A DNA stretch of 64,000 nt from Psococerastis gibbosa (Eukaryota; Arthropoda; Insecta; Psocodea; Psocidae), in NCBI GenBank assembly GCA_963971405.1, contig OZ020486.1:6037419-6101418 (forward strand), in the 5' to 3' direction. A program made the position numbers and the translations under genes. Below are positions 1,736 to 60,700 of this stretch, piece after piece. The number at the start of each line of letters is the position of its first letter. Position 1 is the stretch's first letter. The notes beneath the pieces were generated by a model that saw only the letters and a list, made by a program, of their open reading frames with translations, ran no database searches and was not told where the DNA came from.

Positions 1736-2942
1736 AGTTTAGGTTTACGTACTTCCCTCAAGTGTAACTTGCTTATACATAACTACTTCTCAAGTAATAC
1801 TTCGTAAAATAAATATTTCAGCAAGCTTCAGCAACACGGTTGCCAAGCTTCATTAGTGCCGCGCTTAACTGACAATGTTTTGTTGAGGAACATTTCGACT
1901 ATTTCAATGCAATACTTTCCACATTCATTTTGTAATACTTCGTCAAAGTGAAAAATATAAAAAACTTGGTCAAGTAGTAGGCTATCAAAATTTCTGTTTT
2001 AATTTTTTTATTTACTAACATTTCAACCGCCCCAAGTCAGCTTACGATAAATCCTTACAGCTAAAATTGATTTTGTTGATATTGCACAAAAAACGGATAG
2101 TTAAAGTTAGTTGGAAATTGGCCGAAAAGCACATGGCGCCTAATTTTAAGTTAACGTAAACTACCCCTCATGCAGATTTTAGAATCGTTCGGGACGCCAC
2201 AAAACGGGCTAAAACAGCACAATCAAAACAAAAAGAATGCCAAAAAGCATCCATCACCAGCGAAATCCGTCCATAGGGGGTTCAACAGAGCCAATTAGTT
2301 TAAAAGTTAGTATAAGTGTTAATAGAGAAAAGAAAGCGTTAATAGTACAAAGCAATGCAAATGATGGGTTAATAGTGCCCGAAGTCAGTTCAACGAATCC
2401 TGTATAATGCTCTCCTGCTTATGGCCATAATTGCTTAAGCTGTGAAACTGCTGTTAGTCCTTAAATGGGGAAATTCCATTAACATTAAACATTAATATAA
2501 TAATTATTAAATTTAATTCAAACTAAAAACCGCTATATAATTGAAAAGCTGTGCTATTTTCTTATCGTACATATGGACGATCGCAACACGGCAGGCGCTG
2601 TGGGAATTTCGTCACTGCAGCAAACGGGTTGGTGCAAAGCCTAATTCAGAAGATTTCTGACGCTAGCCTCAGAACTCAACCGTGTACTAGCGGCAGTAAT
2701 CTTCTGAAGTGCGTTCAGAAATAGACTGTCTTTTCGGTGTTGTTGCACGAACCAATCATTCATTTGCCCCCTTGACAAATTTCTCAGCGAGTCGACGGCG
2801 TTCGAATCGTCACATCAGTACTCAAATGATTTCTTCACCAATGACAAAAAATATCAGCAGTTTCAGCAGTAAACAAATAATGAGCAGAAGACAGAAGTCC
2901 CCGGTGGATGGTCGTAGCAATATAGAGGGCGGTGCCACTTAC

Positions 2943-3080
2943 AGCGACGGTGGAGCCGTTTTTGCCCACACCACCAGTCATTATGGTGAGGAACACCAAG
3001 TACACATTGTATGAGCAGCACAGGACGGTAGTTAATCCCACAGTGTAACGCATTTCGAATATCATGAAACCAAAATCTAT
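2943..3080 (-). CDS. CEPT1: CEPT1-like exon 4
   Basis: It begins after an ACTTTGCAG acceptor and ends at a consensus GTAAGT donor: 46 codons, phase 0. It ends in [12 protein letters not shown], the conserved loop of the family. The overlapping open frames on both strands here are shadows. Confidence 0.92.
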
Positions 3081-6000
3081 CTGCAAAGTCAACAAGACAA
3101 CGTTAATATGCTCTATATTCCGCCTTCAAATCCGGGCTGCCATTTCGTTCTTTTCAGATTCTCCAGAAATATGTAACGGCAAGCGTCTGTAGGTCTTTTC
3201 CGTACCATAACAGACCATGATTACCTCCAAGCTCACTTGCACAGAATAGGCCTGGCAGTCAACGACATTTGCCCACTCTGCCAGACAGCGAGGATGGACG
3301 GGGACCACTGGACAAACTGCCCCCAGCTCCAGAACCCGCCACTTCGGCCAGATACTGGTAGCCTCAACAGCCAAGGGCGGATAGTCTCTGAAGCCAATTG
3401 AAATTCTCTGTGCTTCAAAGAATTCTCCAAACATTGGCAACCTTGCTTCAAATATTATTGGAAATTACAGTGACACCAACTACGGGTGGCAAGAGAGAGA
3501 TGACTTGACAGCCCTAACAATTCCGTGTGGTGTGACTTTCCTTTTCCCTTCCGGCTGTGGCCGATCCGATCAGGTGCAGGGAGATATAAAAGCACCGACT
3601 CCACTTCGCAGGGTGGTGATTTCTTCTTCTCTTATAAATGATAACATATTGCACAATTAAACTAAACTAAGTGCACTTTTCGCACAGGCGCCAACCCCGC
3701 TTTCCCCCTACGCCGATGAACTTTTGTGTCAATATCACATTATTTTCACATTGACTGGTCGCCATCTTGAAATTATTTATTATTATTATCGTGGATAAAA
3801 ATACGGGCTTTCAGTCACATTTAATTCCATCTCTGATAAAGGAAAAAAGGAAAATAGCCGTACCTGGTATGACCAAAATTGCGGGCCAATAGTTCCTGAG
3901 ATTAAGTGAATGACCATGATGGTGCACTGCGCCTCAGTGACGTCCACCTTGCCGAACTTCATGGTCCCGCTGACGTAGGTCTGCCAGTGGGCGCAGTAAA
4001 ACAAGACGATGGCGCAGAAACATTGGAAGAACATCCACGTCGGATACTGGCCGATCTGACACGCAATGCACGCTGAGAGCGCCACAAACACTGAAAAAAA
4101 AACAAGGAAATGTATTCATATTGTACATAACGTCAATGTACTGTGTACATATGTGTTAGGTCTGCCAGTACAAGCAGTAGAATAAGGTGATGGCGTATAA
4201 ACATGTAAACAACCACGCCGGGCACTGGCCACTCTGACGCGTAAAGCACGCCGGCAGCGCAACAAACGCTGGAAACAACAAGGAAATTCACAAAAACTGG
4301 GCAAGAAGTCAATGTACAGACTTGGAAAGTCTATTAGTGAACAAAGGAGTAGAATGATCACGCACAAACATTAGAATAACAACCACACCGGGCACTGGCC
4401 ACTCTGACGCGCAAAGCACGCCGACAGCGCCAAAAATACTGGGAACAACATGGAAATGCCTATAAACTGAAAAGAAGTCAATATATAGACTTGGAAAGTC
4501 TAGCCTATTGGTGGACAAAGGAGAGCAGGACGATAGCGTAGAAACATTGGAAGAACATCCACGTCGGGTACTGGAAGAATATGCACATAAACTGTACAGG
4601 AATTATTTCATTATTATTTATAAGGTCTGTCAGAGGGCGCTGTAAAATAACAAGGTTTCCAAGTCTGCATTGGAAAAGCGTACAATGGCAGGCTTCAAAT
4701 GAATAGTCCGTGGTCTTAACGGTCACCCGCTCCCGAACATAGTTGCTTAACATCAGTGCCAGGCGTGCACTATTCAACCTTAAACAAGTTGCACGCGGCT
4801 GCGCACGGTAGCCAAGTTTCAATGAACGAAATTAACACGTTGTTGAGACTTCAATGGCTCGTTGCGCTTCAATGACCTTCAAGGTTTTCATCACATCCAA
4901 TTTTCACAATTACAGCTCTATTATATTAACGAACATGTTCTTGTACAACATTTTGTTTATGATTGGATGCATAATACTATTGTACATTTAACCTATTCTA
5001 AATGCAAATATTACTATTGCAGATACTTGAGCAGCATTCTTGACTGCCCTCTGTGAAAAATAATGGCACCGGAATAGATTAAGGCGCATACAGAGCACCA
5101 CCATTTTCCATTCTTTTTGTGCCCAAAGTCAAAATTTTCATGAAATTTCAATCGTAGTCAAAAAAATTAAATGAATAAAAATATAAACAAATAAAAAAAA
5201 TTAATAAATGAGGTGTCGTAGACTAGAAAAAAATGTTCCTCTCCATTTTGATAAAATTTAATTCCATTCAATGGAATGTGACCGTGTGTAACACCAATTG
5301 GCCACAGTTTTGGAACTCCTTCCACCAGTCATCCCCAGTGACAGTTAATTTTTTGGGTGGCAGGCACTAACATCAATTAGCTACAATATATAATTTAATA
5401 TAGTTGAGAACTGGACTACTAAACGGAAGTACAGGTTAGCGTCTCGATACATGAGGAAAAATTAACCTAATATGTACCAGAATTTCACCACGAAGGGAAA
5501 ACGCGGCTACCAGGCATGTTGCTGACTACTACATCCCTAAGAGTATTGGTCATGACTAAGAGTCCTTTACCAGTCCTCAACATTGTGTTCAAAGTAGCTG
5601 AACTTCTGAGTCTGAGCCTTACGGTCTCAGAGGGGAAGACGCGAAAATCCATAATCTGTACCTACTTCTGGTTGAGATAGAAGCGCGTAGTGGCGACTGA
5701 ACAAATAGGGAACAGCGCACTCTTTCGTCCCGGGGGTGGGAAACTGGCCCTGAAGGCGGTGGAACTCAATGAAGAGTCAACGGCATAAGGATGCAGAAGG
5801 AAACCACTGCATTACAATTCCCTAGTACAGTCGCCATGACTACGATTGCCATGGTCATAGGTGAGCATCGATAGAAGAGGCATTAGAAGAAGTGGGTGAA
5901 CACGAGCATAGCCCGATGTAAAGTAGTTTGGCTGGAAAATCGACCCTATCGCAACCGTCTTTCCAGAGGATTGATAGCCTTCCATAGAAGAGGCATTTGA

Positions 6001-9000: not shown

Positions 9001-12000
9001 AAACGGGGTACTCCAATTTGCTGTTAATACATAATATCAGGTGAAAGCCAATAAGTTAACCAGTTATCTGGTTACTGCTAGTGATGGATTGATGGCAGAC
9101 TGTCGGTACGACCCTACCTTACACAGGTAGCATATACCAGCAGGAACAATTGTTCCTACTTTGTGGGAACCACCCTAACAGAGGGTCCTATCATCGCTTG
9201 AAAAGCCTCGGTAAGGAATTCTACACGGCACTGCCATACATTAGAAGATGGCGGTGCCGTCCAGCATGCTTCACTGATAATGATTATTATTTCAAGGGCT
9301 TGATATGGACGAAGGCCCTTTGAACCTTGTCCTGCAAACGACCACTAAGATTTTCGACCACAATTGGTATTGTATCCGTAAGACTTTTTGGCCGATGGGA
9401 AACGGTAACACGTCATCGCTGTCCACCTAAACCGGCTACAAGTGATAATGGACAAGCTGAGACAAGCGTACCACTGACACAATGTCACAGGTGTGTCTTC
9501 AAAGTAGCTGAGTACAAATTGTCATGTTGATCGCCAATTTTCGATAGAAGAGGCATTACTAGTAGTAAGGTTGGACACCGTCCCAGGCCACGGTGTGGGC
9601 CCATGGGACAGTGGACTTCCTGATTATAGTGGATTCCGAACCACTTGGGAAACGCAGTGAAGTCACGATTAGTTCGGAGGTGACCAGGACAAGTCCTACC
9701 ATGTTTCCTTACCGGCATTGTGCACACGACAAAGTTATCTGCATCTTTGAACCTGCACTGGTCCGCTGGATTCAACTTGGTATGGCGGCCGGCTAGAAGA
9801 GGCATTAGAAGAAGAATAGGCGAAGGTGTGACGGTACGAGTCAACCTTACTGATTCTGGGACCTGGCCTAAGTGTAGGGGCAAAACCACGACTTGACTGA
9901 GTCGACTGTTTCAAGCCCTTGCAGTGCAACCCTGAATAAGGACTTTTAGGCATAAAAAGTACAAACCTGTAGATAAGGAGTCACAGCCATGATCAAACAA
10001 CTCTCCAAGTGGGCTAGACGTTCCAGTCCGACGAGCCTGTTTCCCATCGATTGCGTCCAGACTTTGATACAAAAATAAACCAGCAGCGCACAGCAAACAT
10101 GCCCATCTAGGAGGCTGCAAAAGAGACATAAAATTCAGTTCGCTCCGAGACCCTATACGACCTGGTGCACAAGGCCGTACAGAAATCCATGATTGGAGCA
10201 AACAGGAAGCAAATGAGTTGGTGCAAACCCAGAGAGTCTACTTCAGAAGATTTCTTTGCTGCTACTGATGTACAATTTTCCGAAAAACTGGCTTGGGCTC
10301 AGTGCAACCAGCTTCAGAGACATCTTCTGAAATAGACTGTGGTTTCGTAACAGCCCATTTGCTCCAATGACGGATGCGTGTCGCTGGCGCGGCTTATGAA
10401 TCGACTTTGTGCACCAGGCTTCCAGCATAACCAACCCATTGGAAAAGTGATTAGATGTTGTGCTGACAATTGTCCTCAATTGCGTAATAATGATTCACTC
10501 TTGACTGCTGGGTCTAAAGGTAATACACGTGCGTACCAGTGTACCTATGGTCTGATGTTGCGATTGTGCATTATTAGCAATCAGAGCGCTAGTTGCAAGT
10601 CTCTTAGGCTAGGCTACTGATGGGTAGGCTCCTTGAAGTGAAGACTTGTAATATCGATTTCTTTTATTTTTCTTTATAAAATAAGAAGACTAATTGCATA
10701 CAAACAATTTAATGAATGTACATCCGATTAATCTCTTCATTCGCCTCACTAAGAAGCTTAATAGTACTTGTGTTGAGTTACGACACGTCTCCGATAGCAT
10801 GGTGTTTAGAGAGTCGCACAAGTACAAGCACACTACCACCATGCAACCGATGCGGGCTGCAGCCCAACCTGACAGACACGACATTTTATAAAAAAACACT
10901 TTTTGGTTCCTGGGACCTCAAAACGTTAAAATTCACTGAAATCCCGAAAATCGAAAATTTCGATCATCACAAAGCTTTCCTTATACTACGCATAAAAAGA
11001 AAAGCAAAACTATCCTCAGGTATTATGTCTGATATTGGGTTAAATTTCAAACTCAGCCATTTTTAGCTGGGGCTAACCCGTGGTAGCCAGTAGTCCCAGT
11101 TATAGGTTTAGTAAAATAACAATATCTAACATAAAATAATAAATTGATGGACGACTTTCATAGTGAATCACCTGCTGTGATTGGGTCTAATTTCCAATAA
11201 TAGCGCCTATGATTAACCTATTGAGAGTCCTCGCTCAGAGTGTTGATTGGTTGGCTTGGTGGTAAGAGCATTCTTTCCCGCCATTAGTAATTTTTGAATC
11301 TATAGCAACACCCCAATTATCAGCTAGTTGTCCAATAAAAGCTATTGATTTTTAAGTATACATCATTATAATTCAAATAATCAACAAAACCAACGTTCTG
11401 CTATTTCGTCGTTAAATGAATGAAATAAAATAAAAAGTAATTCCACTCTGCATTAGTAAATCATGGGCATTATAATTGAGAATTGACCCCCCAATCAGAG
11501 GTAGGCATTTCGCCACTTTGCCTTTTTTTCATTTCCATAGGCAACTCAACAAGTTGTTCATTTCTTAGTGGGGACTTAGTGGTGCTAGTGGATTAGCAGA
11601 GCATAAAAAACTCTGATACTGTACATGCACAAATTTTCAAAAGTTACCTTCTGAGCGCATCGCTCTCAATAATTTATTCTGATAGTGAAAATGGAAAACA
11701 TTTGAACAATTTAGCCCCCATTATTACAGGAAAGTTTACGGCTAAAGTAATGGTGGTATGTCTACCTATTTCTTGTGTTATGGACTTAACCAGGCAAATA
11801 CAATAGCTTCTATTATTCAAGAGGTAGAAAATAGTCCTCTATGACTTGAATGGGCTAAATCTTTAATAGCTTCCGTTTTTAATAATATGGTAAGTAGTAA
11901 GCAACATGCAGGTAACTGCAACGTGCATTTTAGGGCAGCATGAGCATACTAATCTCAAACAACCATAAATGGACGCTAATCATCGCTTAACAAGTTAAAG

Positions 12001-12423
12001 GTCAAGCTAATTTACTATTAAATTGGTAAACAGCATAGATAGATGAATAATTTTGTATGATAAGCAGTCATTGCAATCTTAAGAAGAAACATAACTGGGC
12101 CAATACACATTCAGCCCTTGCCTTGCCCTCTAATATTGCTAACAAGTTATGGTAATATTGCTTGACATACTACTTACCTCTGATTTGCCGTCAGGACTGG
12201 ATTCTATTAGAAAAAGTGAGGTTATAATATTAATTATTAGTCCCGACATGGTGATCAAATTGGGGGCAAGCCATAGGGGCGTTTTTGACACTAGATAATT
12301 CCAAAACGGTTGTAAAAACGGGTCGAGGAGTCCTACATTCTCACAGCTGTATTGATGCTCCTGCAATCGTTTGAGCTGGCCGTTTGTTAGGAGTTTTTCC
12401 TTGTAGAGCGACATGGTAGCCAT
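2943..12423 (-). CDS. CEPT1: Choline/ethanolamine phosphotransferase, 5' four exons (partial gene)
   Basis: The enzyme transfers phosphocholine or phosphoethanolamine from its CDP ester to diacylglycerol, the last Kennedy-pathway step, in ER or Golgi membranes. Four exons join cleanly on the minus strand: 12423-12178, 10114-9967, 4090-3864 and 3080-2943. All have GT-AG borders and compatible phases, giving 253 codons. Residues 105-127 match the CDP-alcohol phosphotransferase signature DG-x2-AR-x8-G-x3-D-x3-D perfectly (D105, G106, A109, R110, G119, D123, D127). Further family landmarks are [17 protein letters not shown] and GGVGKNGST. The family is about 400 residues long, so roughly 150 C-terminal residues are missing and should lie left of position 1; I saw no matching exon in 1-2900. 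The sequence fits CEPT1/CHPT1 (insect bbc) better than the selenoprotein EPT1, but the substrate cannot be read from sequence. Introns are loaded with repeats. Confidence 0.93.
3864..4090 (-). CDS. CEPT1: CEPT1-like exon 3
   Basis: It is preceded by a T-rich tract and CAG acceptor, and ends at CCAG/GTACGG. The split codon with exon 2 gives Val132; 75 further codons end in phase 0. It contains [20 protein letters not shown] and [10 protein letters not shown], which are strongly conserved in animal CEPT1/CHPT1. Decayed tandem copies of its 5' half follow upstream in transcript terms (4160-4655). Confidence 0.93.
4160..4655 (-). pseudogene. Decayed tandem copies of CEPT1 exon 3
   Basis: Three partial copies of the exon 3 5' half follow at roughly 180-bp spacing (about 4160-4290, 4330-4440 and 4520-4580), and a scrap near 4622-4655 matches the GGTCTGCCAGT end. 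The first copy keeps a TTTCCAG acceptor and 37 codons alignable to exon 3, then hits TAA directly after WQT. The second has an internal stop after WLLF. The third retains [11 protein letters not shown] almost unchanged. None has a complete exon or donor. They look like tandem exon-duplication relics inside intron 2. Use as alternative exons is conceivable only for the first and would truncate the enzyme. Confidence 0.8.
5570..6100 (-). mobile_element. SINE-like retroelement cluster
   Basis: Complement of two families seen elsewhere: the AAGCTCAGCTACTTTGAAG family (5575-5705; other copies at 26300, 32090 and 58985) and the ATGCCTCTTCTATC family (5720-5905 and about 5975-6020; other copies at 31365 and 58355). 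Confidence 0.65.
6101..7509. other. CEPT1 intron 2, no gene seen
   Basis: AT-rich intronic sequence with a 20-base-plus C tract at about 6610-6631 followed by a GC-richer unassigned segment. The short open frames have no recognisable product. Confidence 0.5.
7510..7870 (+). pseudogene. Non-LTR retrotransposon RT C-terminal fragment
   Basis: The translation reads [17 protein letters not shown] near 7675-7730, the typical end of craniofacial-development-protein-like endonuclease/reverse transcriptase ORFs. Upstream, 7510-7645 gives a matching [19 protein letters not shown] stretch in another register. It is frameshifted and truncated, lying in intron 2 of the CEPT1-like gene. A relative is at 40950-41345. 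Confidence 0.75.
8500..8645 (+). mobile_element. SINE-like repeat, TTACGACA(C/G)GTC family
   Basis: Shares CAGTCGCCT, GAGTTACGACA and AGAGACTCGCAC-type blocks in order with 10690-10880 and 32695-32890. Confidence 0.6.
9295..9830 (+). mobile_element. Interspersed repeat (GATTATAGTGGATTCCGAACC family) with SINE piece
   Basis: The central part matches 36747-37083 (plus) and 55440-55794 (minus) through GTGGATTCCGAACCACTTGG and GGTGACCAGGAC. A SINE-like ATAGAAGAGGCATTA piece is embedded. Divergent copy. Confidence 0.6.
9967..10114 (-). CDS. CEPT1: CEPT1-like exon 2 (catalytic motif)
   Basis: It runs from a TTTTGCAG acceptor to a CAG/GTTTGT donor: 148 nt, phase 0 in and phase 1 out. It carries membrane segment [16 protein letters not shown] and the full metal-binding and catalytic CDP-OH-P signature. 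The open frame continues outside both splice sites, but homology stops exactly at them. Confidence 0.94.
10690..11005. mobile_element. SINE-like repeat followed by fragment of the CAGA-microsatellite family
   Basis: Positions 10690-10880 match 8500-8645 and 32695-32890. Positions 10879-11005 match the TTGGTTCCTGGGACCTCAAAAC...AAAGCTTTCCTTATACTACG end of the ~860-bp family. Both lie in CEPT1 intron 1. Confidence 0.7.
11006..12177. other. CEPT1 intron 1 remainder
   Basis: AT-rich; I recognise no gene, repeat copy or RNA. Confidence 0.5.
12178..12423 (-). CDS. CEPT1: CEPT1-like exon 1
   Basis: It codes for 82 codons and ends in phase 0 at a GTAAGT donor (12177-12172 read on the minus strand). 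It begins [20 protein letters not shown] and contains the conserved WLAPNLIT stretch leading into the first membrane segment (about residues 52-73). The first in-frame ATG was taken as start; Met4 is an equally plausible start because the family N-terminus is variable. No TATA box or other promoter element was recognised upstream. Confidence 0.92.
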
Positions 12424-13040
12424 TTACATTTAACAGCAGAGCAATTATGCCAAATTATATTAAATTTACCGTAAATAACTAATAAACATTACAAAATTTT
12501 ATGAATGCACATTGACGGGGAAGGCGTCCATCTTTGAACTACCAAATAAACAATGCTATTCTTCTGCCACGGCACAACTTGCCAACATTTTATATCCGTT
12601 TCCGCCAGGGCTGAGATAGTTATTCAGTTATACACAACTCCGCTAGATGGCAGAGAAATTCAGTTTTATTTTTATTGTAGATTTCAAAATTTGGGATTTG
12701 ATACACTATATACAATATGATATAGCCTATTTTATGCGATTTAGGAGAGATCCCAAAAATATTATTTCAAACCTGGAGCCACCGGATATGTTTATACAAT
12801 GGCAGAAATTCAAAAATTCATCTGATATTATATTTATGTCCCATCGCACCTATGTAGACCTAGTTTTTATTTTCCTTCCAATTTTTTTATATTAATGGAC
12901 AAAAGAACTCGAATAATAATTTAGAATATAATAGATGAAATGAATAGAATATTTATATTGAGTTATTAACATGAAACAATAGGCGTTATTAAACCTAATA
13001 ATGCTAAGATACAATAACAATACATAAATGAAACACTAAA

Positions 13041-14335: not shown

Positions 14336-14340
14336 CGGCG
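14336..14340. repeat. Transib target-site duplication, left copy
   Basis: CGGCG, repeated at 18593-18597. Confidence 0.9.
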
Positions 14341-14376
14341 CACAGTGGGGTATTTGCCCGATTTAGCTGGCCAAAA
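14341..14376 (+). repeat. Transib left terminal inverted repeat
   Basis: CACAGTG heptamer, then 23 bases, then CCAAAAGTG in the position of an RSS nonamer (consensus ACAAAAACC, 5 of 9 identical). It pairs perfectly with 18557-18592. Confidence 0.95.
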
Positions 14377-14609
14377 GTGATTTTTGCAAAATGTAACAAA
14401 GTTGAATCAATATAGGCTAATTTTATTTAAAAAACTTCAAAGTTTTTTAATTTAAAAGATTGGCGGCAAAATATAACGCGGTTTTTTTGCTATTACGTTG
14501 CCAAAGTGGCTATTTGTTTGTTTTTGTGAGCATTTTTTACGCAACACTCAGCACAGCCAAATTTGTGTTATTTTTAATTTTGTAAGCTCTGTTTGACTTT
14601 AACCCCGTT

Positions 14610-14628
14610 ATGGATTTGGACAAAGAAG
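14610..14628 (+). CDS. Transposase exon 1 (19 coding nt)
   Basis: ATG plus five codons (MDLDKE) and one base before GTTAGT. Joining to the acceptor at 15398-15399 restores a Glu codon and continues in frame into Met8. Without this exon the protein would start at the ATG at 15402, losing only seven residues. Confidence 0.65.
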
Positions 14629-17600
14629 GTTAGTAGAACATTTTAATATTATGTTTGTTTAGTTTCATGCTATTTAATTGGGTTTAAATTGCTGATGAAA
14701 GTGACAACTTTTGCTAAATTGCAATTTTTTTGGCTTTTCAAACTAGGAATATGTCAAGAGCCCCACCCGATCCCGGGCTATCTCTTATTACTGTGTATAG
14801 TTTGACTTATTGAGATGAAGGATTAGTAGAAATCTCGTCCCCGTTCGTCCCCCTTTTCCTACAATATTCACTGAAAGTCTGGTCTGCAACCTACATTATA
14901 TTAGTAGGCAGATATACTGTAATGTGTTCCTGTAAGATAATGTAGGCTCAATACTTTAGTGATGAACCCTGAAACCAAAATGAAGGTAGTATTTACTGTA
15001 GAATACTAAATTAAGCACACATTTAATTTTATAATTGAATAATAATGCATGGAAGTTAATAGCAAAACATTTCACCTACTAGGTACTGAGTATAACTTTT
15101 ATGCTTACATCACAGCACATGTAGGCTAAATGTTGCAATTACGCTTCCTAAACAAATATTATTTCAATGTATCGCATAATTAATAGCCTATTGTTTATTT
15201 ATTGGAAAAAGAACGATGAGTTGGCCATCTGTGTGACTGAAGTTGAACTAATTAAAGTGGTGGAGACGCAGTGCGCCCCGGCGCGCTGTTGTCTGCTGTC
15301 AGCTATAGGTAAACCCTGCTAGAGGGCGTGGCAATGCCTCTATTGTACATAGGCCCAAATTTCCTTGGCGTTTACTAATTATTAATTTTTTTCTTGCAGA
15401 AATGCGATTTTGGTCGTCCAAAATCAGTCACAAAGACATTTATTGTAAGATAATGACCAACAGTGGGACGAATTTCGACGAAAAATGCAACAATTTTAAA
15501 GAAAGCGTGCCACGTTCTTTATTAGGGAAATTCATTAGATTGAAATCCAAGCTGAACGAGAGAAGAAAGTGTTGTAACTATATGGATAATCGTTTCGTAG
15601 AAAAACACCGCCAGTGGTTGGAACTGGTATGGCACGAGGGAGGTACAGAGGTAAAGCCGGGACGGCCAAATGCGGACTTCGCTTCTAGTTCGGGTCGGAC
15701 AAAAAGAAGGAGGGTGAAAAAAATTGTGGAGGAAGTTGATTCCCAAGAACTGCTTCTTGCTGCTCGTTCTAAGATATATAGAAAGGGGAAGAGGCAAGCA
15801 GCTTCAGTAATGGATGGCTTGATGGGTTCTCCTTCAAAAGTGAAGAAAATTAAGATGGTAATAGAAGAGGACCGGCACAGCAGCTTGGTGAAAAACACAC
15901 TTACTGCGAAAGAGGCACTCGGAATGATCGTGGACGCAGATCTAACTAGAAATCAGTATAATATCGTTAGAGGCACAGGCACAAATAAAAAATTGTACCC
16001 TTCGTACAGTATTGTCCAACGAGAAAAGAGGAAATGCTACCCGGCTCCAGAAGCTGTAACCATAACTGAAACAAAGGCGGAAGTGGACTTAAAAGAACTT
16101 CTAAAGCTGACGACGCACAGGCTATTGATAGCTTTACCGGAAATGCCAGAAGAACGCGAGCTCACATTAATTTCGAAATGGGGCTGTGATGGGAGTCAGC
16201 AGGCAGAATACAAGCAGGTCTTCAAGGACGAAGTAAATGCTTCTGATTCAGCAGTTTTCCAAAGTTCCATGGTGCCATTGAAACTCGTCTCGACTCAGAC
16301 AGGACTACCGATCTGGGTGAATCCTCTGCCTTCTTCTCCGCGATTGTGTAGGCCTATAAGAATTCATTTCAAAAAAGAAACTGCCGAAGGGACACAAGAA
16401 GAGATGCAGCATATTGAAGATTCGCTGACAGGTTTCAATAATGTAACTTTGAATGTCTTTGATAAGACATACAAAATTAAAGTAATTATGTTACCCACAA
16501 TGGTTGACGGAAAGGTGTGTAATGCTGCTACTGACACAAGATCCACTATGGCATGTTACATTTGTGGAGGTAACATGAACACTTTCAATGATCTGACGAT
16601 ATCGCGAAAGGTAAATGAGGAGAGCCTGAAGTTTGGGTTATCCACTTTGCACGCTAGAATAAGACTAATGGAAAGCATTTTAAAAATTTCGTACAAGCTG
16701 CCATTGAAAAAGTGGAAGGTGCCGAAAAAAGACGTAGAAGGGAAAAGAATAATGAAAGAAAGAAAAAAGGAAATTCAACGCAGATTCAAAACGGAACTGG
16801 GCCTAATTGTGGACGTGCCAAAAGCAGGGGCAGGCAATACCAACGATGGCAATACATCACGAAGATTCTTTGAGAGTCCAGAAAAAGCGCATGATATAAC
16901 AGGTGAGTCGAATGAAGAAATATTTTCCTCCTCTCTGTTCATATACTACGTAGGTACCCTACTGTTTATTTTTGAAAACACATTACATTGCTATATAGGC
17001 CTATATAAAATGCTCAATTTATCTCTAGTATATTATATTAACTTGTTATTTATTTGTTCCAGGGTTTGACTTATCCTTAATCCAACGCCTCAAAGTAATC
17101 ATCGAGGTATTGTGTTCTACGAGGAAAATTGATGTTGAAAAATTTGGAATTTATACGAAGGAAACTGCCGAATTATACGTGACAAATTATCAATGGTACC
17201 CAATGACACCGACCCTCCACAAGTTGTTGGTCCACGGGCCTGTAATAGTCGAGAGCTCTCTTCTGCCTATTGGTATTTAATTTAATTACTAACCTATACT
17301 TTTTCAATGATGTGATTGTACTGTATTCTATATACCTATTACAATAGTTTATATAATTATATATTTTTCATTAATTATTCGATTTAATTTTAGGCCAGTT
17401 GTCAGAGGAGGCAGCGGAAGCACGGAACAAAAGCCTCCGCAAGTACCGCAAGGGGTATTCGCGAAAATGTTCTCGCATAGCCACAAATGAGGATGTGTTA
17501 AACAGACTGCTTCTAACTTCAGACCCCTTGCTGTCTCTTGAATACATCAATACACGGCTGCATAGAAGACCATCCAAAAAATTATCAGAAGAGAGCACTA

Positions 17601-17653
17601 ACATGCTAATTATAGAGGAGGAATCAGCCAGCTCATCAGAATCAGATGAATAA
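14610..17653 (+). CDS. RAG1-like Transib transposase, four exons, 663 residues, apparently intact
   Basis: DDE recombinase expected to nick, hairpin and join DNA at the CACAGTG ends. Exons 14610-14628, 15400-16902, 17063-17272 and 17394-17653 join in frame with GT-AG introns, giving 1992 nt. Catalytic residues by comparison with RAG1: D270 (KWGCDGS), D489 (NTNDGNTSRRFF) and E586 (SEEAAEARNK), matching RAG1 D600, D708 and E962. The zinc site is C392/C395 (CYICGG) plus H560/H565 (LHKLLVHGP), matching RAG1 CxxC and HxxxxH. The N-terminal 260 residues are basic and lack a recognisable RING finger. The C-terminus is acidic and Ser-rich. Length suits Transib (about 650-700). The exon 2-3 join and the first small exon are predictions supported by phase and homology. 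No frameshift or premature stop was found. Confidence 0.92.
15400..16902 (+). CDS. Transposase exon 2 (D1, D2, CxxC)
   Basis: Preceded by TTTTTTTCTTGCAG; ends ACAG/GTGAGT. Encodes residues 7-508 including D270, C392, C395 and D489. The open frame running on to 17069 past the donor is intronic and shows no homology. Confidence 0.93.
17063..17272 (+). CDS. Transposase exon 3 (HxxxxH zinc ligands)
   Basis: Acceptor TTGTTCCAG, donor ATTG/GTATTT. Encodes residues 508-578 with H560 and H565, aligned to the RAG1 segment preceding its catalytic Glu. Confidence 0.9.
17394..17653 (+). CDS. Transposase exon 4 (catalytic Glu, C-terminus)
   Basis: Acceptor TTTTAG. Encodes residues 578-663: E586, a basic stretch, DVLNRLLLTSDP, then an acidic tail ending SESDE and TAA. 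An AATAAA-type signal lies near 17944. Confidence 0.92.
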
Positions 17654-17999
17654 CTGAAGGGGAAAGGGAGCCAATAGCAGAAAGTTGCCTCTGATCTCTC
17701 TACTTTTTGCAATATACAAATCGGCACTGTTTTAATGTTTAATGTTTTAAATTTCCTAAATCCAGCTTATCGGGGTATTTAGCCTGCTTGTATTGTACCA
17801 CTTAATGTTTGCCTTTGGCATTTAATGAATCAATATCTAGGCCTACATAGGCTACCGAACGAAAATATTTTGACCAATTTAAAGGCTAGATTCAGGTTAT
17901 AAGCTGATCTTGACTACCCAAATATTTGATTATTTATTTATTTAATAAATAAATAATTTATTTATGGCTGTCAAAATTTGCATATCAACTAATATGATA

Positions 18000-18530
18000 T
18001 ATTTCCACCTAAATATGAATTTTGGCCTCAATTAGCCCATAATAAGCTGAGATATAGACTTTTGCCGATTTTGGCCGCCATCTTGAATTTTTTTTAACAA
18101 AAATTTTTTGTAATTTTTTTCTACCTAAGATGCACCTAAATATGAATTTTGGCTTGAATTAATTCATAATAAGCTGAGATATAGAATTTGGTCGATTTTG
18201 GCCGCCATCTTGGATTTTTTTTAACAAAAATTTTTCGTAATTTTTTTCTACCTAAGATGCACCTAAATATGAATTTTGGCTTGAATTAGTTCATAATAAG
18301 CTGAGATATAGAATTTGGTCGATTTTGACCGCCATCTTGGATTTTTTTTAACAAAATTTTTTTGTGATTTTTTTCTACCTAAGATGCACCTAAATATGAA
18401 TTTTGGCTTGAATTAGTTCATAATAAGCTGAGATATAGAATTTGGTCAATTTTGGCCGCCATCTTGAATTTTTTTTAACAAAATTTTTTTGTAATTTTTT
18501 TCTACCTAAGATCCACCTTTCCACCAAGTT
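18000..18530 (+). repeat. Subterminal ~127-bp tandem repeats of the Transib
   Basis: CACCTAAATATGAATTTTGG starts near 18006, 18133, 18260 and 18387, each followed by AATAAGCTGAGATATAGA and TTGGCCGCCATCTTG-type blocks (one reads TTGACCGCC); a fifth unit is partial. They lie just inside the right TIR and have no counterpart at the left end. Confidence 0.9.
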
Positions 18531-18556
18531 TCATGAAAATCGCTTGATTTTCTGAG

Positions 18557-18592
18557 TTTTGGCCAGCTAAATCGGGCAAATACCCCACTGTG
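18557..18592 (-). repeat. Transib right terminal inverted repeat
   Basis: Exact inverse of 14341-14376. Read inward from 18592: CACAGTG, 23 bases, CCAAAACTC (6 of 9 identical to the RSS nonamer consensus). Confidence 0.95.
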
Positions 18593-18597
18593 CGGCG
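18593..18597. repeat. Transib target-site duplication, right copy
   Basis: CGGCG, identical to 14336-14340. Confidence 0.9.
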
Positions 18598-27034: not shown

Positions 27035-29058
27035 AGATATAATATTTTCAATAATAAGACACCCCAATACCCACCGTACAGAACATTTCAGAGGGTGGGC
27101 AAGGATGACCTAAGTTAGTAATTATAAGTAAGCAAACGTTTATTGAAACATAAAACAATTAATCCACAATAATTGTAGGATTGCCCAATATAGGCAGACA
27201 GAGACAGAGATATAATATTTTCAATAATAAGACACCCCAATACCCACCGTACAGAACATTTCAGAGGGTGGGCAAGGATGACCTACGTTAGTAATTATAA
27301 GTAAGCAAACGTTTATTGAAACATAAAACAATTAATCCACAATAATTGTAGGATTGCCCAATATAGGCAGACAGAGACAGAGATATAATATTTTCAATAA
27401 TAAGACACCCCAATACCCACCGTACAGAACTTTTCAGAGGGTGGGCAAGGATGACCTACGTTAGTAATTATAAGTAAGCAAACGTTTATTGAAACATAAA
27501 ACAATTAATCCACAATAATTGTAGGATTGCCCAATATAGGCAGACAGAGACAGAAATATAATATTTTCAATAATAAGACACCCCAATACCCACCGTACAG
27601 AACTTTTCAGAGGGTGGGCAAGGATGACCTAAGTTAGTAATTATAAGTAAGCAAACGTTTATTGAAACATAAAACAATTAATCCACAATAATTGTAGGAT
27701 TGCCCAATATAGGCAGACAGAGACAGAGATATAATATTTTCAATAATAAGACACCCCAATACCCACCGTACAGAACTTTTCAGAGGGTGGGCAAGGATGA
27801 CCTAAGTTAGTAATTATAAGTAAGCAAACGTTTATTGAAACATAAAACAATTAATCCACAATAATTGTAGGATTGCCCAATATAGGCAGACAGAGACAGA
27901 GATATAATATTTTCAATAATAAGACACCCCAATACCCACCGTACAGAACATTTCAGAGGGTGGGCAAGGATGACCTACGTTAGTAATTATAAGTAAGCAA
28001 ATGTTTATTGAAACATAAAACAATTAATCCACAATAATTGTATGATTGCCCAATATAGGCAGACAGAGACAGAGATATAATATTTTCAATAATAAGACAC
28101 CCCAATACCCACCGTACAGAACTTTTCAGAGGGTGGGCAAGGATGACCTACGTTAGTAATTATAAGTAAGCAAATGTTTATTGAAACATAAAACAATTAA
28201 TCCACAATAATTGTAGGATTGCCCAATATAGGCAGACAGAGACAGAGATATAATATTTTCAATAATAAGACACCCCAATACCCACCGTACAGAACATTTC
28301 AGAGGGTGGGCAAGGATGACCTACGTTAGCAATTATAAGTAAGCAAACGTTTATTGAAACATAAAACAATTAATCCACAATAATTGTAGGATTGCCCAAT
28401 ATAGGCAGACAGAGACAGAGATATAATATTTTCAATAATAAGACACCCCAATACCCACCGTACAGAACTTTTCAGAGGTTGGGCAAGGATGACCTACGTT
28501 AGTAATTATAAGTAAGCAAATGTTTATTGAAACATAAAACAATTAATCCACAATAATTGTAGGATTGCCCAATATAGGCAGACAGAGACAGAGATATAAT
28601 ATTTTCAATAATAAGACACCCCAATACCCACCGTACAGAACTTTTCAGAGGGTGGGCAAGGATGACCTACGTTAGCAATTATAAGTAAGCAAATGTTTAT
28701 TGAAACATAAAACAATTAATCCACAATAATTGTATGATTGCCCAATATAGGCAGACAGAGACAGAGATATAATATTTTCAATAATAAGACACCCCAATAC
28801 CCACCGTACAGAACTTTTCAGAGGGTGGGCAAGGATGACCTACGTTAGTAATTATAAGTAAGCAAATGTTTATTGAAACATAAAACAATTAATCCACAAT
28901 AATTGTAGGATTGCCCAATATAGGCAGACAGAGACAGAGATATAATATTTTCAATAATAAGACACCCCAATACCCACCGTACAGAACTTTTCAGAGGGTG
29001 GGCAAGGATGACCTACGTTAGTAATTATAAGTAAGCAAACGTTTATTGAAACATAAAT
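27035..29058. repeat. 12-unit tandem array, 173-bp period
   Basis: Units start at 27035, 27209, 27382, 27555, 27728, 27901, 28074, 28247, 28420, 28593, 28766 and 28939; the last is truncated after TATTGAAACATAAA. Each begins GATATAATATTTTCAATAAT and ends GGCAGACAGAGACAGA. Units differ at only a handful of positions (ACATTTC/ACTTTTC, AAGTT/ACGTT, AAACG/AAATG, TAGG/TATG), so homogenisation is recent. No ORF spans it. Confidence 0.97.
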
Positions 29059-31625: not shown

Positions 31626-31944
31626 GACCTTTTTGGTTCTATTACTGAGCCAACCTAGCGGAGATAGGGCGCAAAAGTCTATTTTATATGAATTTGTACA
31701 GAACTAACTACCTACAAGAACTCGGACTTAATAGAATGCTGACCAGGTGTAATATTCTTAACCAGAAGTATAACATAGATATTTCCCCATGAATCAGTAA
31801 ATAGCATTAGGAGGAAAGCCTTACAACATGCGTTTTAATACCTTATGTACTGTTATTATTCCACTTCTTGTAACAACTTTGTCAAAATTGGTAAACTTTG
31901 TAAAATTATAATATTTATTTATTTAAAAAAAAAAAAAAAAAACT

Positions 31945-32085
31945 GTTATACTCAACTTGGAAAGTCCGAGACCGCCTGCTTTACATACCCTCCGAAGCAT
32001 GGCCAGAAAATTTAGCAAGTGTGGGACTCGAACCAACAACCATTCGGGTGAAAGAAGTCGGAGTGTGTACCACTACTTTACAAGT
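31945..32085 (-). mobile_element. tRNA-derived SINE (family A)
   Basis: On the minus strand, GGTTCGAGTCCCACAC forms a good B box (GGTTCGAGTCC). It is followed by TCTGGCCATGCTTCGGAG and GTAAAGCAGGCGGTC, with a poly-A/T run at the 3' end. Confidence 0.75.
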
Positions 32086-51289: not shown

Positions 51290-51470
51290 TAAGATAACCT
51301 TGCGGAGTTAGGGCCATAAAGTCCTCTCTTGCACTCAACGGGGAAGACCCGGGACTGCCTGCTTTACATGCCCTCCGAAGCATGGCCAGAAATTGTAGCA
51401 AAGTGTGGGACTGGAACCAACAACCTTTCGGGTGAAAGTCAAAGTCTCTACCACAAGTCTATTCGTCCGT
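51290..51470 (-). mobile_element. tRNA-derived SINE (family A)
   Basis: Complement of the family: CCATTACTAAGATAACCTTG, GGGAAGACCCGGGACTGCCT and GGGACTGGAACCAACAACCT (B box with one change). Confidence 0.75.
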
Positions 51471-54116: not shown

Positions 54117-54366
54117 GCTAGAAATTTTATGGTGGGGGGCCATGGGGGGGACATGACATCTATTTGGGAGGCCAATAAAAAAACAAAACATTTTTCACTG
54201 GGAGTAGGTATAATGAAAGTAAGTAACTTGTAGTCTTGTAACCAGTTGTAATTCTGATGTTTTTTAATTACAAAAATTCTGCTAACTATATATAAAATCA
54301 CTCAAAAGTGGGGGGGGGGCAGGGGGGCCGGAGAAACTTTCGGGCACCCCCGTAGCGCCGCCACTG
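54117..54366. mobile_element. hAT-like MITE, uninterrupted relative of 14147-18603
   Basis: CAGTGGCGGCGCTAGAAATT start and GTAGCGCCGCCACTG end. Internal AAAACA..TTTTCA(C/T)TGGGAGTAGGTATA matches 14190-14222. Flanks are C-rich, so the target duplication is ambiguous. Confidence 0.85.
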
Positions 54367-54630
54367 CCCCCCCCCCTGAATAAAATCCACAATCCGCTTA
54401 TGCCCAGAGACTGGTGCCTGCTGAGAATGGGTAACGTTTCGCGGATTAGAGGGGTTGCTAAAAATATTTCTTTGTATTCTTAACTAAGAACTAGGCTATA
54501 TGAAATAAATAAATACCGGGACGTATGGTAAGTGCTAGGCTAGTGCTAGTGCACCATGTTGTTTCTCCTAGAAACCAACAGAAACATCGGGATCTGGCAT
54601 TTTGACAATGCTAGAACTCGTGGAACATTT
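54367..54630. other. Spacer
   Basis: No feature recognised. Confidence 0.4.
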
Positions 54631-57814: not shown

Positions 57815-58015
57815 TCAAATAAATAAATAAATAAGGACTTTTTGTTGTTTCTTTTAATAAGCCAACCTAGCGGAGTTAGGGCTATAAAGCCCTCTCTTAC
57901 ATTCAAATAGGAAGGCCCGGGACCACCTGCTTTACATACCCTCTGATGCATGGCCAGAAAATGTAGTCAGTGTGGGACTCGAGCCAACACCGTCCCACTA
58001 CGCCACATGTCCTGA
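57815..58015 (-). mobile_element. tRNA-derived SINE (family A)
   Basis: AAATAAATAAATAAGG tail complement, AAGCCAACCTAGCGGAGTTA, GGAAGGCCCGGGACCACCTG and GTGTGGGACTCGAGCC (B box complement). Confidence 0.75.
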
Positions 58016-60489: not shown

Positions 60490-60700
60490 ATAAATACTGA
60501 CTTTTTATTCTATTACTAAGCCAAACTAGGGGATTTAGGGCTACAAAGCCCTGTCTTACACTCAACTAGGAAAGCCTGGGACCACCTGCTTTACATGCAC
60601 TCCGAAGAAGGCCAGAAAATGCAGCCAGTGTGGTACTCGAACCAACAACCTTTCGGGTGAAAGTCTGAGTCTGTAACACTACTCTGCCTTTATATTAATA
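60490..60700 (-). mobile_element. tRNA-derived SINE (family A)
   Basis: CTATTACTAAGCCAAACTAG, TTTACATGCACTCCGAAGAA and GTGGTACTCGAACCAACAAC. Confidence 0.7.

Follow-up and report, generated by a model that had tools for sequence, protein, structure and literature searches.

Twenty-three intact, nearly identical copies of a Transib transposon in Psococerastis gibbosa suggest a very recent expansion

Introduction

A 64-kb stretch of the Psococerastis gibbosa genome, here called the window, contains a transposon-like element with a spliced, RAG1-like transposase gene. An earlier note, based on the letters of this stretch, had described it as a complete Transib transposon and had concluded from this one copy that it was recently active. 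Two questions follow: to which group does the element belong, and is it a solitary survivor or a member of a family that has been moving through this genome? We answer them here from the structure of the element, its transposase, its copies in the whole assembly and the older Transib traces.

Structure of the element

The element spans positions 14341-18592 of the window and is 4,252 bp long. The following features were assigned.

14336-14340, no strand: left target site duplication CGGCG (duplications are perfect at 23 of 23 genomic copies)
14341-14376, plus strand: left terminal inverted repeat, 36 bp, starting with CACAGTG (36/36 match with the right end)
14610-14628, plus strand: exon 1, tentative, 19 bases (six full codons plus one base), a part that the alignment of relatives does not cover
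15400-16902, plus strand: exon 2, bulk of the transposase (D270, E333, D376, C392/C395, D489)
17063-17272, plus strand: exon 3 (H560, H565)
17394-17653, plus strand: exon 4 (predicted catalytic E586) through the stop codon
18006-18518, plus strand: 127-bp tandem array, 4 units, outside the gene at the right end (2 to 6 units in other copies)
18557-18592, minus strand: right terminal inverted repeat, 36 bp (36/36 match with the left end)
18593-18597, no strand: right target site duplication CGGCG

The perfect 36-bp inverted ends and the 5-bp CGGCG duplication of the earlier note were thus recovered base by base. Both ends open with CACAGTG, which starts with CAC and resembles the heptamer of a recombination signal sequence (RSS). 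Apart from these two ends, no match to the 36-bp sequence was found in the window at up to 13 mismatches. A likeness to an RSS was clear for the heptamer only: the best nonamer match was 6/9 at the right end (spacers 22 and 23) and 5/9 at the left end. In a chance control with eight spacers, 9% of random ends scored 6/9 or better and 34% scored 5/9 or better. These matches did not exceed chance, and a 12/23-RSS architecture was not adopted. One report describes symmetric spacers of 20-22 bp for Transibs (PMC8355894).

Joining the four exons yielded 663 codons plus a stop codon, with GT..AG introns, in agreement with the length of the spliced transposase described earlier. The splicing of exons 2, 3 and 4 is supported by sequence comparison: in the 13 relatives displayed at the two junctions the alignment continues ungapped across both, the one exception being HzTransib, with one extra residue directly before the second junction. 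Exon 1, which has no homology backing, is the least certain piece of the predicted gene and is kept as tentative.

Insertion site and surroundings

The window element was found inserted into an interspersed host repeat. The window insertion and a second copy of the element (L014) hit an identical position in two separate copies of this repeat. Another repeat copy, located near 54.3 kb in the window, is empty and aligns with the joined flanks of the window element over the target site. Two further features concern the surroundings.

54271-54367, plus strand: paralogous empty site, a copy of the host repeat that lacks the element, with its target CGCCG at 54356-54360
2838-3125, 3789-4115, 9914-10237 and 12142-12423, minus strand: exon frames of choline/ethanolaminephosphotransferase 1 (CEPT1)

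The CEPT1 frames gave 5,098 matches; among the 120 listed, all those carrying an organism name were from insects, at 65-71% identity. The element lies 1.9 kb upstream of the first CEPT1 coding exon, on the opposite strand. Around 4508-4570 (minus strand), part of the CEPT1 exon at 3789-4115 recurs in degenerate form, followed soon by a stop. A satellite-like array (173-bp unit, 11.7 copies, 98% matches) occupies 27035-29057. A further interspersed repeat family was seen at 31943-32038, 51326-51421, 57894-57989 and 60553-60648; by eye, its minus strand resembles a tRNA-derived SINE. Neither the Rfam nor the tRNA scan of the 64-kb window gave a match.

Transib identity and catalytic residues of the transposase

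Compared with solved structures, the transposase matched HzTransib of Helicoverpa zea (PDB 6pqn) over residues 175-656 with an E-value of 8.3e-116 and 390.9 bits, amphioxus RAG1L with 3e-5 and 25.7 bits, and vertebrate RAG1 with 0.002-0.006. In the Pfam scan RAG1 was the sole family, with 19.3 bits under a gathering cut-off of 25, a cut-off that two relatives tested likewise failed to reach. The label PF26100, precomputed for relatives P0001 and P0045, was absent from the Pfam scan of those proteins. Searching 5.8 billion proteins, 549 relatives were found at an E-value of 1e-3 or below (7,994 candidates scored). The best 120 of the 549, which were listed, are 42-52% identical to the window protein, and all 10 of those carrying an organism name are from insects.

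Residue conservation was counted over 121 aligned relatives, i.e., 120 database proteins and the HzTransib stretch. D270 is D in 121/121 and E333 is E in 121/121; we take the latter to correspond to E662 of RAG1. D376 is D in 120/121 (a gap in the remaining one), E586 is E in 120/121 (D in the remaining one) and D489 is D in 112/121. The zinc ligands, C392/C395 of the CxxC and H560/H565 of the HxxxxH motif, were each invariant in 121/121 relatives, as the earlier reading had them. The published catalytic triad of HzTransib is D126, D225 and E436 (PMC6941560). The 6pqn chain is numbered 17 below the published protein, and its positions 109, 208 and 419 align to D270, D376 and E586, which makes D376, and not D489, the predicted second catalytic aspartate. 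The predicted triad is D270, D376 and E586; the earlier proposal of D270, D489 and E586 was correct in its first and last members.

Might the element rather be a RAG-like (RAG1L/RAG2L) transposon or a domesticated RAG1-like gene? The CACAGTG heptamer and the weak similarity to RAG1L and RAG1 would suit such a reading, but the 390.9 bits to HzTransib stand against 25.7 to RAG1L. Besides those of the transposase, no stop-to-stop frame inside the element is longer than 131 amino acids, ten minus-strand frames (61-131 amino acids) matched no Pfam family, and the 23 mobile copies described below are likewise at odds with it. A RAG2-like gene was not found within the ends among these frames, a search that a gene split into numerous tiny exons could escape. 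Altogether we regard this reading as extremely improbable.

The element combines protein homology, a DDE triad and zinc ligands in the right order, CAC ends and 5-bp CGNCG duplications, and the earlier assignment to Transib stands on these grounds. It is a new addition to an already known superfamily. A tree of 122 rows, built by a quick method, gave long branches for both the window protein and the HzTransib stretch, and these two branches met; no placement of the window protein is claimed from it.

Copies across the genome

The 409-Mb assembly from which the window derives (68 contigs) was searched with the element at the DNA level. All 23 candidates were scored and all proved to be copies of full or nearly full length: 18 match across the full 4,252 bp and the other five have an altered array. 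We are aware that such counts are lower bounds, as decayed or short relics may escape. The copies are spread over seven large contigs and were retrieved with 300-bp flanks for comparison. The perfect 5-bp duplications read CGTCG in seven copies, CGCCG in five, CGACG in five, CGGCG in three, and CGCTG, CAGCG and CGTCT in one each. CGNCG accordingly accounts for 20/23, and begins at 0.1% of window positions; it is known as a Transib target site (PMC4735498; PMC5704228). Among the 23 insertion sites no two had equal 20-bp flanks.

Fourteen of the 23 copies, the window copy counted, are identical over 4,252 bp, and there are 10 distinct sequences in all. Outside the array, three substitutions were found in 85,997 bp (3.5e-5 per site), two in copy L026 and one in L023; one substitution of L026 inside the array was left out of this count. 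L024, L025, L026 and L029 have 1-bp length changes inside the array, which may be sequencing errors; those printed with their context sit in T runs. The reading frames are intact in 23/23 copies, with the same exon coordinates.

A genome-wide search for further copies with the same ends, a check named earlier, was carried out with the 36-bp end at up to 3 mismatches. It returned 46 matches, of which 44 are exact and 2 have one mismatch. With 23 in forward and 23 in reverse orientation, they form 23 pairs of ends, and every one belongs to the 23 intact copies; the reversed control pattern gave 0 matches in 409 Mb. MITEs, solo ends and lightly decayed copies were not found by this genome-wide search. 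Viral contigs searched with 27 bases of the terminal inverted repeat gave 0 matches. An unequal distribution of the copies among the ten largest contigs was considered and rejected (overall p=0.23); the 53.6-Mb contig C1 holds none of the 23 copies (p=0.04 for C1 alone). By inspection, the opening 100 bases of contig C68 resemble a mitochondrial tRNA-Phe.

The exact identity of 14/23 copies might also be expected had they multiplied by segmental or assembly duplication and not by transposition. The flanks, however, differ from copy to copy, each copy is bordered by a perfect duplication of its own, the copies lie on seven large contigs, and the window copy and L014 lie in one repeat family yet differ in their duplications (CGGCG versus CGCCG), so that duplication is hardly credible as the source of the family. 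Copy identity could partly reflect assembly polishing of long repeats; array-length variants and differing flanks argue against a collapse of copies.

The 127-bp tandem array

The array comprises 4 units in 18/23 copies, 5 in two, 6 in one and 2 in two. Between the two copies with 2 units, a single position of the fused unit differs, as expected from either two different crossovers or one later change. Array-length changes in five copies, compared to three point substitutions outside the array, would fit slippage during excision-gap repair. A literature search for a connection of gap repair with tandem arrays yielded nothing on point, judged by title. Repeats for transposase binding were considered for the array, which has TTTTGGCC in common with the terminal inverted repeat, but resampled units equalled this in 12% of cases and the candidate was rejected. 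Three of the four array units contain GCCGCCATCTTG and the other one ACCGCCATCTTG; the reverse complement of this motif presumably resembles the YY1/Pho motif.

Older Transib traces and origin of the family

In a genome search with the window protein, 67 of 73 candidates were scored, and 67/67 belong to the window family. With a Periplaneta relative as query, 74 of 75 were scored and 73 matched, adding four matches, each interrupted by stop codons, which fall at three places of contig C20. These share 33-50% identity with the window protein over 32-117 residues (38-46% where at least 68 residues align) and, judged from these alignments, represent an older Transib of a lineage unlike the window family. 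The three decayed pieces (L074, L075, L076) are the only other traces found, on a contig without any young copy. Older copies of the window family itself were not found genome-wide, in searches that may miss strongly decayed relics.

The family might be a long-resident, vertically inherited low-copy Transib that burst recently, with no horizontal arrival. Autonomous Transibs are reported to occur typically as a single copy or a few copies at most (PMC4411706), the C20 places indicate that the superfamily was there earlier, and one search of 5.8 billion proteins found no close relative as a possible donor. On the other hand, no end at up to 3 mismatches lies outside the 23 copies, the C20 relics are of another lineage at the identities given above, and every one of the 23 DNA-search candidates is full or nearly full length, with the reservation that strongly decayed relics may escape. 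We consider long residence a possible but rather doubtful origin.

Age, activity and proposed mechanism

Insect mutation rates are in the range of 2.8e-9 to 3.5e-9 per generation. At these rates three changes correspond to about 10,000-12,500 generations, with a 95% range of about 2,000-36,000; should the three substitutions be errors, the family would be younger. The recent activity claimed earlier from a single copy has now gained strong evidence, with 23 copies that are all intact and 14 that are identical.

With a probability of about 0.93, the element is an autonomous cut-and-paste insect Transib that expanded very recently, inserts at CGNCG and encodes a spliced DDE transposase. Judged by the intact copies, the family is probably still active and its expansion ongoing. 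The 663-residue transposase, with its predicted triad, would bind both 36-bp ends and cut beside CACAGTG, and the flanks would be left hairpinned as in HzTransib and RAG; nick-hairpin cut-and-paste chemistry has been reported for HzTransib (PMC6941560). Insertion would take place at CGNCG with a 5-bp duplication, the pattern observed at the sites (23/23 and 20/23, respectively). The growth of the family to 23 or more intact copies would have been very recent. Excision gaps were likely repaired from a sister copy, resulting in both copy gain and changes in array length.

How the family came into this genome is a separate matter, and horizontal transfer is perhaps the answer. We lean slightly towards a first phase of an invasion, in which the family arrived horizontally from an unspecified donor and is transposing now, before internally deleted derivatives have appeared, while the array changes trace gap repair.

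Twenty-three intact, mostly identical copies with nothing older of their own kind found represent an uncommon state of a family. From it one could obtain a natural, probably active transposase of the superfamily that gave rise to RAG1, together with a clean set of target sites, as all 23 are resolved. It would also allow an invasion to be followed in an insect besides Drosophila melanogaster.

Comparison with known systems

HzTransib resembles the window transposase in the DDE triad, the CxxC and HxxxxH motifs and the aligned residues 175-656. This comparison covers the transposase only; the window element has three inferred introns and the 127-bp array at its right end. ProtoRAG/RAGL and RAG1-RAG2 have CAC-starting ends, 5-bp duplications and the DDE core in common with it (PMC7204232). 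Unlike ProtoRAG/RAGL, the window element showed no RAG2-like gene, and its similarity to RAG1L reached only E=3e-5. Transib insertions in baculovirus genomes were reported as jumps from moth hosts into the virus (PMC4735498); the CGNCG target is common to both, whereas the copies of the window family sit in a genome assembly.

The closest precedent is Transib1 of D. melanogaster, likewise a recent Transib spread as near-identical full-length copies. It invaded this species in 2013-2016 with D. simulans as the inferred donor, and degraded Transib1 fragments predated the invasion (PMC12230796). For the window family, known from one genome assembly, the genome searches found no relics of its lineage and the one protein search no donor. 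The spread of Transib1 from D. simulans makes an invasion of the kind considered here realistic.
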